Origin: Balneola sp. | GTDB taxonomy: Bacteria > Bacteroidota > Rhodothermia > Balneolales > Balneolaceae | NCBI GenBank assembly: GCA_003712055.1 | Contig: RHLJ01000004.1 | Coordinates: forward strand, 124,001 to 188,000 | DNA length: 64,000 nucleotides | Direction: 5' to 3' | Part shown: positions 20,264 to 56,246 of the stretch, piece after piece | How the letters are laid out: each line of letters opens with the position of its first letter | Numbering within the stretch: the stretch's first letter is position 1 | Position numbers and translations under genes: made by a program | Notes under the pieces: generated by a model | What the model saw: the letters and a program-made list of their open reading frames with translations, nothing else | Database searches by the model: none | What the model was told of the DNA's origin: nothing

Positions 20264-20336
<73 letters not shown>

Positions 20337-52872: not shown

Positions 52873-53014
52873 TGGAGGCAACAGGCGAAAAGCCGCTTTT
52901 TTCGTGTTTTTACCACTAAACTATCCCACCCCGAAAGTGTTCGAGATTGGGAGCCGGATTCGAACCGACGTCACGCGATCCTGAGTCGAAGTAAGGCTAC
53001 TCTACAGCACTCCA
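52873..53014 (-). ncRNA. Y-RNA-like element 5, permuted tRNA-like (next to rtcB)
   Basis: Lower stem TGGAG/CTCCA; internal loop TGCTGTA opposite GCCTGTTGC; helix GAGTAGCC/GGCTTTTC (one T-T mismatch); then T and TACTTCG. The effector region has a T-arm GTCGG-TTCGAAT-CCGGC (52953-52969). A closed acceptor hairpin with stems TCCCA/TGGGA and CTCGAA/TTCGGG and loop CACT follows (52924-52952). A D-arm GTTT-AGTGGTAA-AAAC comes next (52906-52921), and CGT/ACG pairs stand in for the anticodon stem top. The order T-arm, acceptor, D-arm is circularly permuted. There is no T-run, and its 3' end lies 14 nt before rtcB. Confidence 0.85.
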
Positions 53015-53030
53015 AAATTAAAAGATTAAT

Positions 53031-53131
53031 ACAAAAGGGCGACATTCAGTTTACCGTAACCGGATTCGAACCGGACTCACTCATTTCTGAGTTTCACCAT
53101 CGAAGTAGGGTAAACTAACAGCACCTAATGT
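53031..53131 (-). ncRNA. Y-RNA-like element 4, short form
   Basis: Helix AGTTTACC/GGTAAACT is a perfect 8 bp, flanked by TGCTGTT and opposite loop GAATGTCGC, with CTACTTCG following the 5' strand. The lower stem is weak (AGG/CCT, then mismatches, then ACA/TGT). The effector part has a GAAA tetraloop hairpin ACTCA/TGAGT (53079-53092) and a T-arm-like hairpin CCGG-TTCGAAT-CCGG (53060-53074). No D-arm is present. A short T-run (CCCTTTTG) lies at the 3' end. Confidence 0.8.
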
Positions 53132-53132
53132 G

Positions 53133-53275
53133 TTTAGAGTAATAGTCAATCAGAAATGAATTTCCGCCATCCTAATAACTTAGGAGCAGGGTTCGAACCT
53201 GCACATCTATAAAAGATCAGTTAAGCATTTGCTTCACCGGCGTCTACCGAAGTATTCCGATTTACAACATCTAAA
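53133..53275 (-). ncRNA. Y-RNA-like element 3
   Basis: Lower stem TTTAGA/TCTAAA; loop TGTTGTA opposite GACTATTAC; helix AATCGGA/TCTGATT (one G-U); then A-TACTTCG. The effector region contains a perfect T-arm GCAGG-TTCGAAC-CCTGC (53186-53202), followed at once by a closed hairpin TCCTAA-GTTA-TTAGGA (53170-53185) at the acceptor position. There is no clear D-arm. Two small hairpins (AAGC/GCTT and ATCT/AGAT) precede the T-arm. CGCC/GGCG may close the multiloop. Confidence 0.83.
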
Positions 53276-53286
53276 TGTCAAAAAGG

Positions 53287-53426
53287 GATTGAGGTAACCT
53301 TCGAAAAGTCTTCTCGTGCTCTACCAACTGAGCTACCCCATCCGAAAGTTTTCGGGATCGAGAGCCGAACTCGAACCGGCGACCACGTCGTTATGGCGAA
53401 GTATGACTTATCTACAACACTCAATC
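53287..53426 (-). ncRNA. Y-RNA-like element 2, permuted tRNA mimic with canonical D-arm
   Basis: Lower stem GATTGAG/CTCAATC; loop TGTTGTA opposite GAAGGTTAC; helix GATAAGTC/GACTTTTC (one mismatch); then A-TACTTCG. The T-arm is GCCGG-TTCGAGT-TCGGC (53364-53380). The capped acceptor hairpin (53336-53363) pairs TCTC/GGGG, ATCC/GGAT and GAA/TTC. The D-arm is GCTC-AGTTGGTA-GAGC (53318-53333). Twenty nucleotides spanning the D-arm (53317-53336) are identical to tRNA-Phe of this window. CGT/ACG would stack as the anticodon-stem top. CCCTTTTTG follows the lower stem, a plausible terminator. Confidence 0.88.
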
Positions 53427-53436
53427 AATATGTTAA

Positions 53437-53554
53437 TTCGGAGTAACAAGCGAAATAAGTGGGGAATCGCATTCCGGGAGTCGAACCCGGCATAGCTCTA
53501 TGGCTAAGTCCTCCCCTAACGTGAGCGAAGTATCTTATTTCAACAACATCCGAA
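53437..53554 (-). ncRNA. Y-RNA-like element 1 (first after rsr)
   Basis: Lower stem TTCGGA/TCCGAA; loop TGTTGTT opposite GCTTGTTAC; perfect helix GAAATAAG/CTTATTTC; then A-TACTTCG. The effector region is closed by GGGGA/TCCCC (53512-53516 with 53461-53465). It holds a small hairpin (CATA-GAGC-TATG) and a T-arm-like hairpin CCGGG-TTCGACT-CCCGG (53474-53490). The T-arm here comes last, unlike elements 2 and 5, and there is no D-arm. No T-run follows, so its 3' end probably needs processing. Confidence 0.83.
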
Positions 53555-53558
53555 ATTT

Positions 53559-53580
53559 GCCCCGGCTCTGAGGCCGGAGC
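53559..53580 (-). terminator. Strong GC hairpin behind the rsr stop codon
   Basis: An 8-bp stem GCTCCGGC/GCCGGGGC with loop CTCAGA starts 2 nt after the rsr stop. Only AAATTT follows instead of a T-run. It may protect the mRNA 3' end, give partial termination, or mark a processing point between the mRNA and Y-RNA element 1. Confidence 0.6.
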
Positions 53581-53582
53581 TT

Positions 53583-55121
53583 TTATAATTCCATGCGCTT
53601 AATTTCTGAAAGCGTAGAATCACCTTCTTCAAGCGCATTCAAAACATCAAATATTTTATCAGACCATCCAGCGACTAGAAATACATCACTATTTTCAATT
53701 CGAAGCGGAGTATTTCCATAGCCTGCAAGGTCAAACAAATACAGTTTAGCACTTGGTGCGATGGAAGCTTTATACTCTTTCCACAAAGTGGAGAAAGAGT
53801 TTTTTCTTCCACGTGTATCCCACATCTGGCAGTCAGTAAACAGCATCACTTTATCAACTACTTTTCGATTTTTGATTAGTGATTTGATCACTTTATATCC
53901 ATTTGTGGCATACCCAACTGAACCTTCGATTCGGTTAAGTTTCTGGGTATTTGCTAGAACATTGGTAGAAGGTAAGTTGACCTGCTTCCACGAATCTCCG
54001 AAAATTCCAGTAATCACGTTTTTACTCCTCATGTTCATCAACATTCCAAGAAGCAAACCAACATCATAAAGTTGGATAGAGCTATTTTTGGAAATTGGGT
54101 AAAACATGGAGCCGGAAACATCGCACGCAATTACTACTCTTGTATTTAAGCCAAACCCTTTTAGGTTAGCTGTAGAGTGCATCGCTGCAACCTCAAGGCT
54201 ATCCAGGATATAGGAAGCATATTCACTTTTTACTTTCTCGATTTCCCGGTAAGCGGACAATAACCTAAAAGGTAGCTGCCTGGAGCGTTCAACTTCTCCT
54301 GGAGAGCTCAAACGATCTACAACAGTTTTAATAGATTCCTTACCTACTTCAGCCTCAAGAATATTCCTCAAGTTTCGCATAAGAGCCATATATCCGATTT
54401 TGCCGCTTTCAATTAACTCTTCCCACTTGTTTCTGAAAGCAAGTTCTTTTTCGCTTTTTGACGCAAATCTCTTTGTGCCAAGCATAGAAAGCTCTACTTC
54501 CCACGTGTATGGAGTAGCTAAATTTTTATCAGCGATTTTATCGAATAGAGACTGTTTCTCTTCTGATTCAGCTTTTGGACGAACCAGGAACAATGCATCT
54601 CTAAGTGTGATTTCAGCCGGGCGGTCATACTTTGCAAATTGATACTCATCAAATTTGTTGAATGAACTTCCCAGGCCTTTTTGTACCTGCTTAGATAGTT
54701 TATTTAATTTCTTGAACCCTGTACGTTCGTTGGCTGCTGCATAGCAAGCCAAAAGCTCAGTAATTTCATCTGCTCTTTGGATAACCTTGGATACAGTATT
54801 ACTAACCAGGCTATCGCCTTGATGTACACGAGCAAGTTCGGTAACCAAAACCAAAGGAATGGAACGAAGATGCATTTTTGTACGGGCATAAACAGCCAGT
54901 TTAGCAACAAATATAGGGTCGACTTGAGCAATCAATGATCTGATTCTCTCAATCCGACTTTTTTCCGAGGTATAGAAAGGATTACCCAAACCAGCAGTAA
55001 CTACTGCAGAGTAAAGCTCCATCTTGGGAGAGAGCCTTATTGCCCTCTCCCCCTCATAGTTGAGGACCTGCTTTCTCTTTCTATTTAGTACATTGAATTT
55101 CATGATCTTTTTTGATTGCAT
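53583..55121 (-). CDS. rsr: Ro60 orthologue, TROVE-VWA RNA-binding protein
   Basis: A 512-residue ring protein. The TROVE HEAT-repeat domain covers about 10-320 (N-Y-E-G-E-R-A-I-R-L near 20; L-R-N-L-R-N-I-L-E-A near 252). The VWA domain follows (about 325-512) with its MIDAS motif D-V-S-G-S and the later F-T-D-C-Q-M-W-D. Ro60 proteins bind Y RNAs on the outer ring surface and misfolded RNA ends in the central hole, and can link to PNPase. A second Met at residue 7 could be the true start. It is divergent from a WYL regulator gene and followed by five Y-RNA-like genes and rtcB. Confidence 0.96.
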   Translation of the reverse strand: MQSKKIMKFNVLNRKRKQVLNYEGERAIRLSPKMELYSAVVTAGLGNPFYTSEKSRIERIRSLIAQVDPIFVAKLAVYARTKMHLRSIPLVLVTELARVHQGDSLVSNTVSKVIQRADEITELLACYAAANERTGFKKLNKLSKQVQKGLGSSFNKFDEYQFAKYDRPAEITLRDALFLVRPKAESEEKQSLFDKIADKNLATPYTWEVELSMLGTKRFASKSEKELAFRNKWEELIESGKIGYMALMRNLRNILEAEVGKESIKTVVDRLSSPGEVERSRQLPFRLLSAYREIEKVKSEYASYILDSLEVAAMHSTANLKGFGLNTRVVIACDVSGSMFYPISKNSSIQLYDVGLLLGMLMNMRSKNVITGIFGDSWKQVNLPSTNVLANTQKLNRIEGSVGYATNGYKVIKSLIKNRKVVDKVMLFTDCQMWDTRGRKNSFSTLWKEYKASIAPSAKLYLFDLAGYGNTPLRIENSDVFLVAGWSDKIFDVLNALEEGDSTLSEIKRMEL

Positions 55122-55208: not shown

Positions 55209-56246
55209 ATGCCGGTAAATAGAAATGCTTTAATTCGTTACAGGACTATTGATAATTGCTTAAGAAACAGGCAAAGATTATGGACTCTGGAAGATTTAAT
55301 AGAGAGATGCTCTGAGGCTTTATATGAATATGAAGGTATTGATAAAGGGGTAAGCCGAAGAACAGTTCAGTCAGATATTCAAATAATGAGATCGGACAAG
55401 CTAGGATATAATGCTCCGATTATCGTAGAGCGGAAGAAGTATTATTCCTATTCAGATCCTGAATATACAATCACAAATATTCCACTTACTGAGCAGGATA
55501 TAGGAACCTTAAATGAAGTCGTAGAGATACTTAAGCAGTTCAAAGGTTTTTCCCATTTCGAAGACATGGACGGAATGATCAAAAAACTGGAGAATAAAGT
55601 ATACCGAAGCCAACCGAATTCGAGATCAATTATTGATTTTGAAAAAAATGAAGGGTTACGAGGACTTCATCATCTGGATGATTTGTACCAGGCGATTTTA
55701 AATAAAAGTGTTCTGGCAATTACTTACCAATCATTTCGTGCCCGAAAAGCCAATGAATTAGAATTTCACCCTCAGTTTTTAAAGGAGTATCGGAATCGAT
55801 GGTTTGTAGTTGGAGGTAAGAGTAGAGATGCACATCCATTAAATCTCGCGCTTGATCGCATTCAGGAGATTAAAGTTTTGGAAGACAAAAAGTATTTGTC
55901 GTTGAATTTAAATCCACAGGATTTTTACCGGCATGTAATTGGAGTAACTACGAGTCCAAATATGAGACCGCGAGAAGTTATGATCTTTGTAGACCGGGGA
56001 AATGCTCCATATGTGCTTACAAAGCCACTTCATCATTCTCAGCAGCTCGTTAGAAAAGTAAAGGATGGGATAATAATTTCTATTCATGTTCAATTTAATT
56101 TCGAACTGGAACGAGAAATCCTGGGCTTTGGGGAATCCATGAAAGTACTTTCCCCTCCGGGATTAGCTAAGCGTATAAGTAATAAATTATATCTGGCACG
56201 ACGGAATTACGAAGACTCTTCTTATCCGATAGAGTCGGAGTTTTGA
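55209..56246 (+). CDS. WYL-domain transcriptional regulator of the RNA-repair locus
   Basis: A 345-residue protein. The N-terminal winged helix (about 8-75; V-S-R-R-T-V-Q-S-D-I-Q-I-M) precedes a WYL domain (about 140-235; I-T-Y-Q-S-F-R, then F-L-K-E-Y-R-N-R-W-F-V-V-G) and a WCX-like C-terminal extension. WYL domains bind ligands, including nucleic acids in some cases, and often control DNA/RNA damage or defence genes. Its divergent position to rsr suggests it senses RNA damage and controls rsr, the Y RNAs and rtcB, which is inference. Confidence 0.93.
   Translation: MPVNRNALIRYRTIDNCLRNRQRLWTLEDLIERCSEALYEYEGIDKGVSRRTVQSDIQIMRSDKLGYNAPIIVERKKYYSYSDPEYTITNIPLTEQDIGTLNEVVEILKQFKGFSHFEDMDGMIKKLENKVYRSQPNSRSIIDFEKNEGLRGLHHLDDLYQAILNKSVLAITYQSFRARKANELEFHPQFLKEYRNRWFVVGGKSRDAHPLNLALDRIQEIKVLEDKKYLSLNLNPQDFYRHVIGVTTSPNMRPREVMIFVDRGNAPYVLTKPLHHSQQLVRKVKDGIIISIHVQFNFELEREILGFGESMKVLSPPGLAKRISNKLYLARRNYEDSSYPIESEF

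Follow-up and report, generated by a model that had tools for sequence, protein, structure and literature searches.

A YrlA-type Y RNA with a circularly permuted tRNA-like domain in the Ro60-associated array of a Balneolaceae genome

The second of five tandem elements that lie between rsr and rtcB in a Balneolaceae genome, here termed E2, is very probably a YrlA-type bacterial Y RNA, a genuine but ordinary new member of this class. Its anatomy supports a circularly permuted tRNA mimic that is joined at the anticodon stem to a Ro60-type basal stem. The features that define E2 exceed what chance would produce, because they are kept in five relatives and are backed by covariation.

Results

Organization of the locus

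The window analysed here comprises 64,000 nucleotides of Balneola sp. DNA. On its minus strand, rsr is separated from rtcB, which lies downstream, by 724 bases in which no gene was recognised (Table 1). This gap is made up of the elements E1–E5, each of which starts with a TG(T/C)TGT.. ... TACTTCG motif and contains a tRNA-type T-arm. The TROVE gene thus lies directly upstream of the array that includes E2, the adjacency expected of a YrlA-type Y RNA. Its product is 70–74% identical to the TROVE proteins of Balneola and two further Balneolaceae. A search with PADLOC returned nothing for TROVE or RtcB; the WYL regulator matched CRISPR-associated WYL models and had two weak matches besides.

A GC-rich hairpin is found at 53559–53580 on the minus strand, between the rsr stop codon and E1. 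The relatives also have a hairpin in this gap, of different sequence. It is possible that the hairpin acts as an attenuator or a processing site.

Table 1. Features of the rsr–rtcB locus and of element E2 in the window.
Feature	Position	Strand	Basis
WYL-WCX regulator, divergent	55209..56246	+	Pfam WYL 7.5e-13, WCX 3.5e-09
rsr (TROVE + Ro60 vWA protein, 512 aa)	53583..55121	-	Pfam TROVE 5.6e-27, vWA_Ro60 2.2e-09; PDB TROVE proteins 9l5y, 9kop
E1, Y-RNA element with T-arm	53440..53551	-	resembles Deinococcus Y RNA, RF01053 28.2 bits, below cut-off 80
E2, YrlA-type Y RNA with circularly permuted tRNA-like domain	53289..53424	-	Rfam RF02553 full-length match; orthologs in 5 relatives
E2, 5' Y-RNA motif GTGTTGTAGA..TACTTCG of basal (predicted Ro60-binding) stem	53397..53420	-	motif heads every element
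E2, 42–48 strand CGTGGTC: two anticodon-stem bases, 26-44 partner, variable loop with C48	53381..53387	-	class covariation
E2, T-arm GCCGG-TTCGAGT-TCGGC	53364..53380	-	descriptor and fold
E2, acceptor stem CTCGATC...GATGGGG, closed by hairpin CGAAA/TTTCG, 6/7 pairs, one extra T before it	53336..53362	-	descriptor and fold
E2, D-arm TAGCTCAGTTGGTAGAGC	53318..53335	-	same as in several tRNAs
E2, 3' basal-stem strand GACTTTTCGAAGGTTACCTCAA	53289..53310	-	pairs with 5' strand in minimum-energy fold and YrlA model alignment
E3, Y-RNA element read as class II tRNA opened in D-loop	53133..53275	-	GGTAGACGC at 53240-53248 ... TGGCGGAA after acceptor
E4, Y-RNA element, hairpin + T-arm, unpermuted order	53037..53125	-	sequence reading, kept in relatives
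E5, second anticodon-opened permuted tRNA mimic	52873..53015	-	D-arm TAGTTTAGTGGTAAAAAC at 52906-52923; descriptor and fold
rtcB RNA ligase, 404 aa	51644..52858	-	Pfam RtcB 6.9e-60

Anatomy of E2

Read on the minus strand, E2 bears out the order of parts given in the initial annotation: T-arm, hairpin-closed acceptor, and a D-arm with the GG of the elbow, here at positions 18–19. The unconstrained fold contains an outer stem, an inner stem, the T-arm, the closed acceptor, and the D-arm; the 5' and 3' ends pair as the basal stem, and the pair probability of the inner stem is 0.59–0.81. The acceptor is flawed at two points, by the extra T that follows the T-stem and by a single G-G mismatch. T55 and the T residues of the D-loop are present. 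Neither an anticodon loop nor free acceptor ends are found in E2, so it does not classify as a tRNA, and ARAGORN and the Rfam tRNA model made no tRNA call at E2 when run on the window.

The annotation had also placed the junction between anticodon stem and Ro60-binding stem at a CGT/ACG helix. This helix, which is absent from the unconstrained fold and is revealed by covariation, corresponds to tRNA positions 26–28 against 42–44, that is, two Watson–Crick anticodon-stem pairs (27-43 and 28-42) and the 26-44 contact. The two anticodon-stem pairs covary across relatives; the 26-44 contact does not.

A D-arm shared with tRNA genes

The E2 segment GTAGCTCAGTTGGTAGAGCA is identical over 20 nt to the tRNA-Phe gene at positions 20270–20289 of the window, a match that had been reported earlier and proved exact by direct comparison. 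The genome has six copies of its 18-nt D-arm core, one in E2 and the others in the tRNA-Trp, Thr, Lys, Phe, and Gly genes, so the match reflects the tRNA D-arm consensus and not tRNA-Phe in particular. Descent of E2 from tRNA-Phe, as the 20-nt identity might suggest, is ruled out as a conclusion from this match, the core being common to five tRNA genes.

The initial annotation considered the near-native D-arm specific to this case, a view that the comparison with other Y RNAs overturns. The D-arm of the Rfam YrlA consensus, GUAGCUCAauuuGGUAGAGC, is nearly identical to that of E2. When 94 distinct elements at Bacteroidota TROVE loci were compared, the exact GCTC/GAGC D-stem was present in 65 and an 18-nt D-arm identical to that of E2 in seven. 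A tRNA-like D-arm is the rule within the YrlA-type class and no special feature of E2.

Assignment to the YrlA family

E2 matches Rfam family RF02553 (YrlA) over its full length with 28.5 bits (E = 0.0011), against a gathering score of 69 that is a curation threshold and not a biological feature. E2 orthologs reach up to 37.9 bits and same-class arrays up to 73.2. Sub-threshold YrlA matches also occur in 8 of 14 control genomes, where they are presumably tandem tRNA genes, and we therefore dropped the Rfam score alone as proof of YrlA identity. In two genomes of the same class, tandem arrays (G176:C1:886797-887554 and G179:C6:72645-73249) show four to five YrlA matches, some of them above the Rfam cut-off.

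When elements were opened at the acceptor and supplied with the anticodon arm of tRNA-Phe, ARAGORN called a tRNA for 89 of 90, and for none of 200 full shuffles of E2. The same test passes 144/200 shuffles of the E2 D-arm and 184/200 shuffles of its acceptor. Since such shuffles mostly pass, the outcome depends largely on the T-arm and on the anticodon arm that was supplied, and the call on re-opened E2 is weak as proof of the D-arm.

Conservation in relatives and across the phylum

Five relatives within the Balneolaceae have syntenic arrays, each with an E2 ortholog that keeps the T-arm, the acceptor hairpin, and the D-arm. Counting G-T, the acceptor forms 7/7 pairs in all five orthologs (CTCTGAA/TTCAGAG, CTTTGAA/TTTAAAG, CTTTAAG/TTTAAAG), and that of E2 itself is less tRNA-like than theirs.

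A single scan of bacterial genomes yielded 80 Bacteroidota-type TROVE loci. The Y motif occurs in 341 copies downstream of these 80 TROVE genes, compared with 18 upstream and 16 on the opposite strand. It follows the Ro60 gene in 68 of the 72 loci with enough sequence, and of the 72 loci that have 3 kb or more of downstream sequence, 64 contain at least three motifs (median 5). Arrays of Y RNAs are the norm at Bacteroidota TROVE loci; at viral TROVE loci they are mostly absent. In locus L003, about 630 bases past the TROVE stop codon, the fifth array element is a bare Y stem without a T-arm, and L004 and L006 show the same. A Y RNA without an effector domain may exist, as these fifth elements suggest.

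The 94 distinct elements were picked by the Y motif, a T-arm, and a loose D-arm pattern; acceptor pairing was not a criterion. Their acceptors form on average 6.26 of 7 pairs, compared with 3.57 when partners are shuffled.

Covariation of the tRNA-like core

Tertiary contacts were assessed in the 90 elements with at least four acceptor pairs. The Levitt pair 15-48, a reverse Watson–Crick pair in tRNA numbering, is G-C in 68 elements, A-T in 21, and G-G in one; the crossed combinations G-T and A-C occur in none of the 90. The association has a Fisher p of about 1e-21, from a calculation on the table of the 94-element comparison that ignores relatedness. A15-T48 is spread over about ten genus- or family-level groups, and in the closest pair of elements that differ here, from L140 (Flavobacterium) and L090 (Aquimarina), both sites have switched while the elements are 85% alike. 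Positions 27-43 are paired in 84/90 elements (about 37 after shuffling) and 28-42 in 81/90 (about 35), with all four Watson–Crick types in use.

The search pattern imposed T8, A14, the terminal A of the D-loop, and the D-loop GG, and the constancy of these bases carries no independent weight. Pairing at 15-48, 27-43, and 28-42 played no part in the selection and does count as independent evidence. A tRNA-like tertiary core is well supported by these sequence patterns as a predicted property of the E2-type class. For E2 itself, we infer this core from its set of G15, C48, G18-G19, and T54-A58, and the bases that specify a T-loop/D-loop elbow are present in its sequence. The covariation could in part be inherited from ancestral tRNAs and not re-selected, a reading that is disfavoured because of the double 15-48 switch between close elements.

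The 15-48 result is a phylum-wide comparative test that YrlA-like RNAs beyond Salmonella keep the tRNA tertiary fold. Retention of this fold makes it possible to test across Bacteroidota whether Y RNAs recruit tRNA enzymes.

Sister elements and a second permutation

The sequence of E3 can be read as that of a class II tRNA whose opening lies in the D-loop, which would be a second permutation besides the opening at the anticodon stem. After the Y motif, GGTAGACGC corresponds to the 3' side of a D-arm like that of tRNA-Leu; where the anticodon arm would stand there is a hairpin of nine pairs and a single mismatch, followed by a variable arm (ATCT..AGAT), the T-arm, the closed acceptor, and TGGCGGAA, the 5' half of the D-arm. 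The same order is found in eight further distinct elements (L061, L062, L065, L067, L077, L124, L137, and L138, with L062 counted together with the near-identical L063/L064). In this set the halves of the D-stem pair across the permutation with both sides changing (GCTC/GAGC, GTTC/GAAC), and 15-48 is A-T or G-C in every element. An extra match in L112 is doubtful, its 15-48 being A-C.

Once the L067 element had been closed again at the D-loop, ARAGORN assigned it to tRNA-Leu(CAA); none of 300 shuffles gave such a call. A Saprospiraceae relative keeps a 7-nt anticodon loop and yields a tRNA-Leu call on re-closure; the E3 ortholog in G004 is called a tRNA of unknown kind, and the re-closed E3 of the window received no ARAGORN call.

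E4 consists of a mini D-arm (TTC-GATGGT-GAA), a hairpin, and the T-arm, a layout that is the same in relatives. It may be a reduced, unpermuted tRNA in which the Y stem replaces the acceptor.

Copies of 23S rRNA in Y RNA elements

In 8 of the 80 TROVE loci, AACGGTCCTAAGGTAGCG and surrounding bases are found within an element that carries the Y motif. These elements start at L072:7072, L090:about 2736, L091:7605, L111:10835, L117:10459, L118:9609, L119:8359, and L122:7633. By direct DNA comparison, the L072 element contains a stretch that is identical at 33 of 33 bases to the LSU rRNA gene of the genome that contains the window. We take this stretch to be the helix 69–71 region, with helices assigned by E. 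coli 23S. Submitted to cmscan as a short piece, the 23S-like element gave no score.

Together, these elements lead us to favour, with some reserve, a reading of the phylum's Ro60 locus as a set of modular Y RNAs. One kind of stem would display copies of core translation RNAs, namely a tRNA with its opening at the anticodon stem (E2, E5), a whole cloverleaf opened in the D-loop (E3), and 23S helix 69–71, and Rsr would carry a range of adaptors or decoys directed at several enzymes that act on translation RNAs. If this is true, a single Ro60 protein works with several mimics of tRNA and rRNA that differ in build, and the purpose of Y RNAs becomes a matter of comparing mimics inside one operon. 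The E3-type permutation and the rRNA copies are more novel than E2. In the literature searched, outside which the main Y RNA papers lay, no description of rRNA-like or D-loop-opened Y RNAs was found, and an earlier description is possible.

Discussion

Proposed role of E2 and alternative explanations

We infer that E2 is transcribed, bound by Rsr, engaged by a docking partner, and modified. Its basal stem would bind the adjacent Ro60 ortholog Rsr, and its far end would form a tRNA L that is opened at the anticodon stem and has hairpin-closed acceptor ends; because of this hairpin, E2 could not be charged. E2 is probably transcribed together with rsr, the other four Y RNAs, and rtcB, in an operon for RNA repair or RNA quality. 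The tRNA-shaped module would dock a tRNA- or structured-RNA-handling enzyme onto Rsr, which could be PNPase, the partner of the Deinococcus Y RNA, or an enzyme of tRNA processing, and would also gate the RNA-binding ring of Rsr. Our confidence in this docking mechanism is evenly balanced. A review describes a Y RNA that joins Rsr to PNPase (PMC8394870). The genome has genes for TruB and Dus, and modification of E2 by these tRNA enzymes, which the initial annotation had expected, is plausible; they would probably act on its T- and D-loops in passing. Salmonella YrlA is a substrate of DusA and TruB (PMC8394870, PMC9176250).

A different mechanism for the same RNA would make E2 a decoy that, through its tRNA shape, sequesters an anticodon nuclease or an enzyme that binds tRNA under stress while RtcB repairs the cut tRNAs. 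The shared operon with RtcB fits this proposal, as does Salmonella, where the operon is switched on by tRNA fragments and YrlA was suggested by the authors as a possible competitive inhibitor of the nuclease (PMC7790460). E2, however, lacks the anticodon loop that such a nuclease targets, and we consider the decoy unlikely, though worth keeping in view.

Two further explanations dispute the identity of E2 as a Y RNA. It could be a circularly permuted tRNA gene that gives rise, once its transcript has been processed, to a working tRNA, as in red algae; the order with the 3' half first is the same, permuted genes opened at the D-loop or the anticodon loop are known (PMC3978253), and the gene for an RNA ligase, RtcB, adjoins. 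Yet past two pairs the anticodon stem of E2 runs on, with no anticodon loop, as a Y stem with the shared motif, and this motif follows the Ro60 gene at nearly all loci with enough sequence (68/72), which leaves a working tRNA highly improbable. Equally hard to sustain is a functionless remnant of a tRNA array. The extra T and the G-G mismatch in the acceptor stem and the 20-nt identity to tRNA genes favour this reading, whereas the syntenic orthologs in two genera, with compensated stems, and the phylum-wide covariation speak against it.

Comparison with known systems

E2 resembles YrlA (RF02553; Salmonella, 6CU1), whose crystal structure is circularly permuted relative to tRNA (PMC11472068). 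Both have the order T-arm, hairpin-closed acceptor, and D-arm, a basal stem, and a near-consensus tRNA D-arm, and both adjoin rsr and rtcB. In contrast to YrlA, E2 scores under the Rfam cut-off and has a different basal-stem motif (GTGYCGTAGA..TACTTC), and its locus contains five tandem elements and a WYL regulator that adjoins the operon; RtcR and RtcA were not seen beside rsr and rtcB in the window.

The Y RNA of Deinococcus radiodurans (RF01053) shares a T-arm inside the Ro-binding stem, and the sister element E1 weakly matches this family over its full length. E2 differs from it in having a D-arm and a permuted acceptor, and has no match to that family. With the permuted tRNA genes of Cyanidioschyzon merolae, E2 has in common that the 3' half precedes the 5' half; those genes, with openings in the anticodon loop or the D-loop (PMC3978253), mature into working tRNAs, whereas E2 is without an anticodon loop and is carried on a Ro60-type basal stem.
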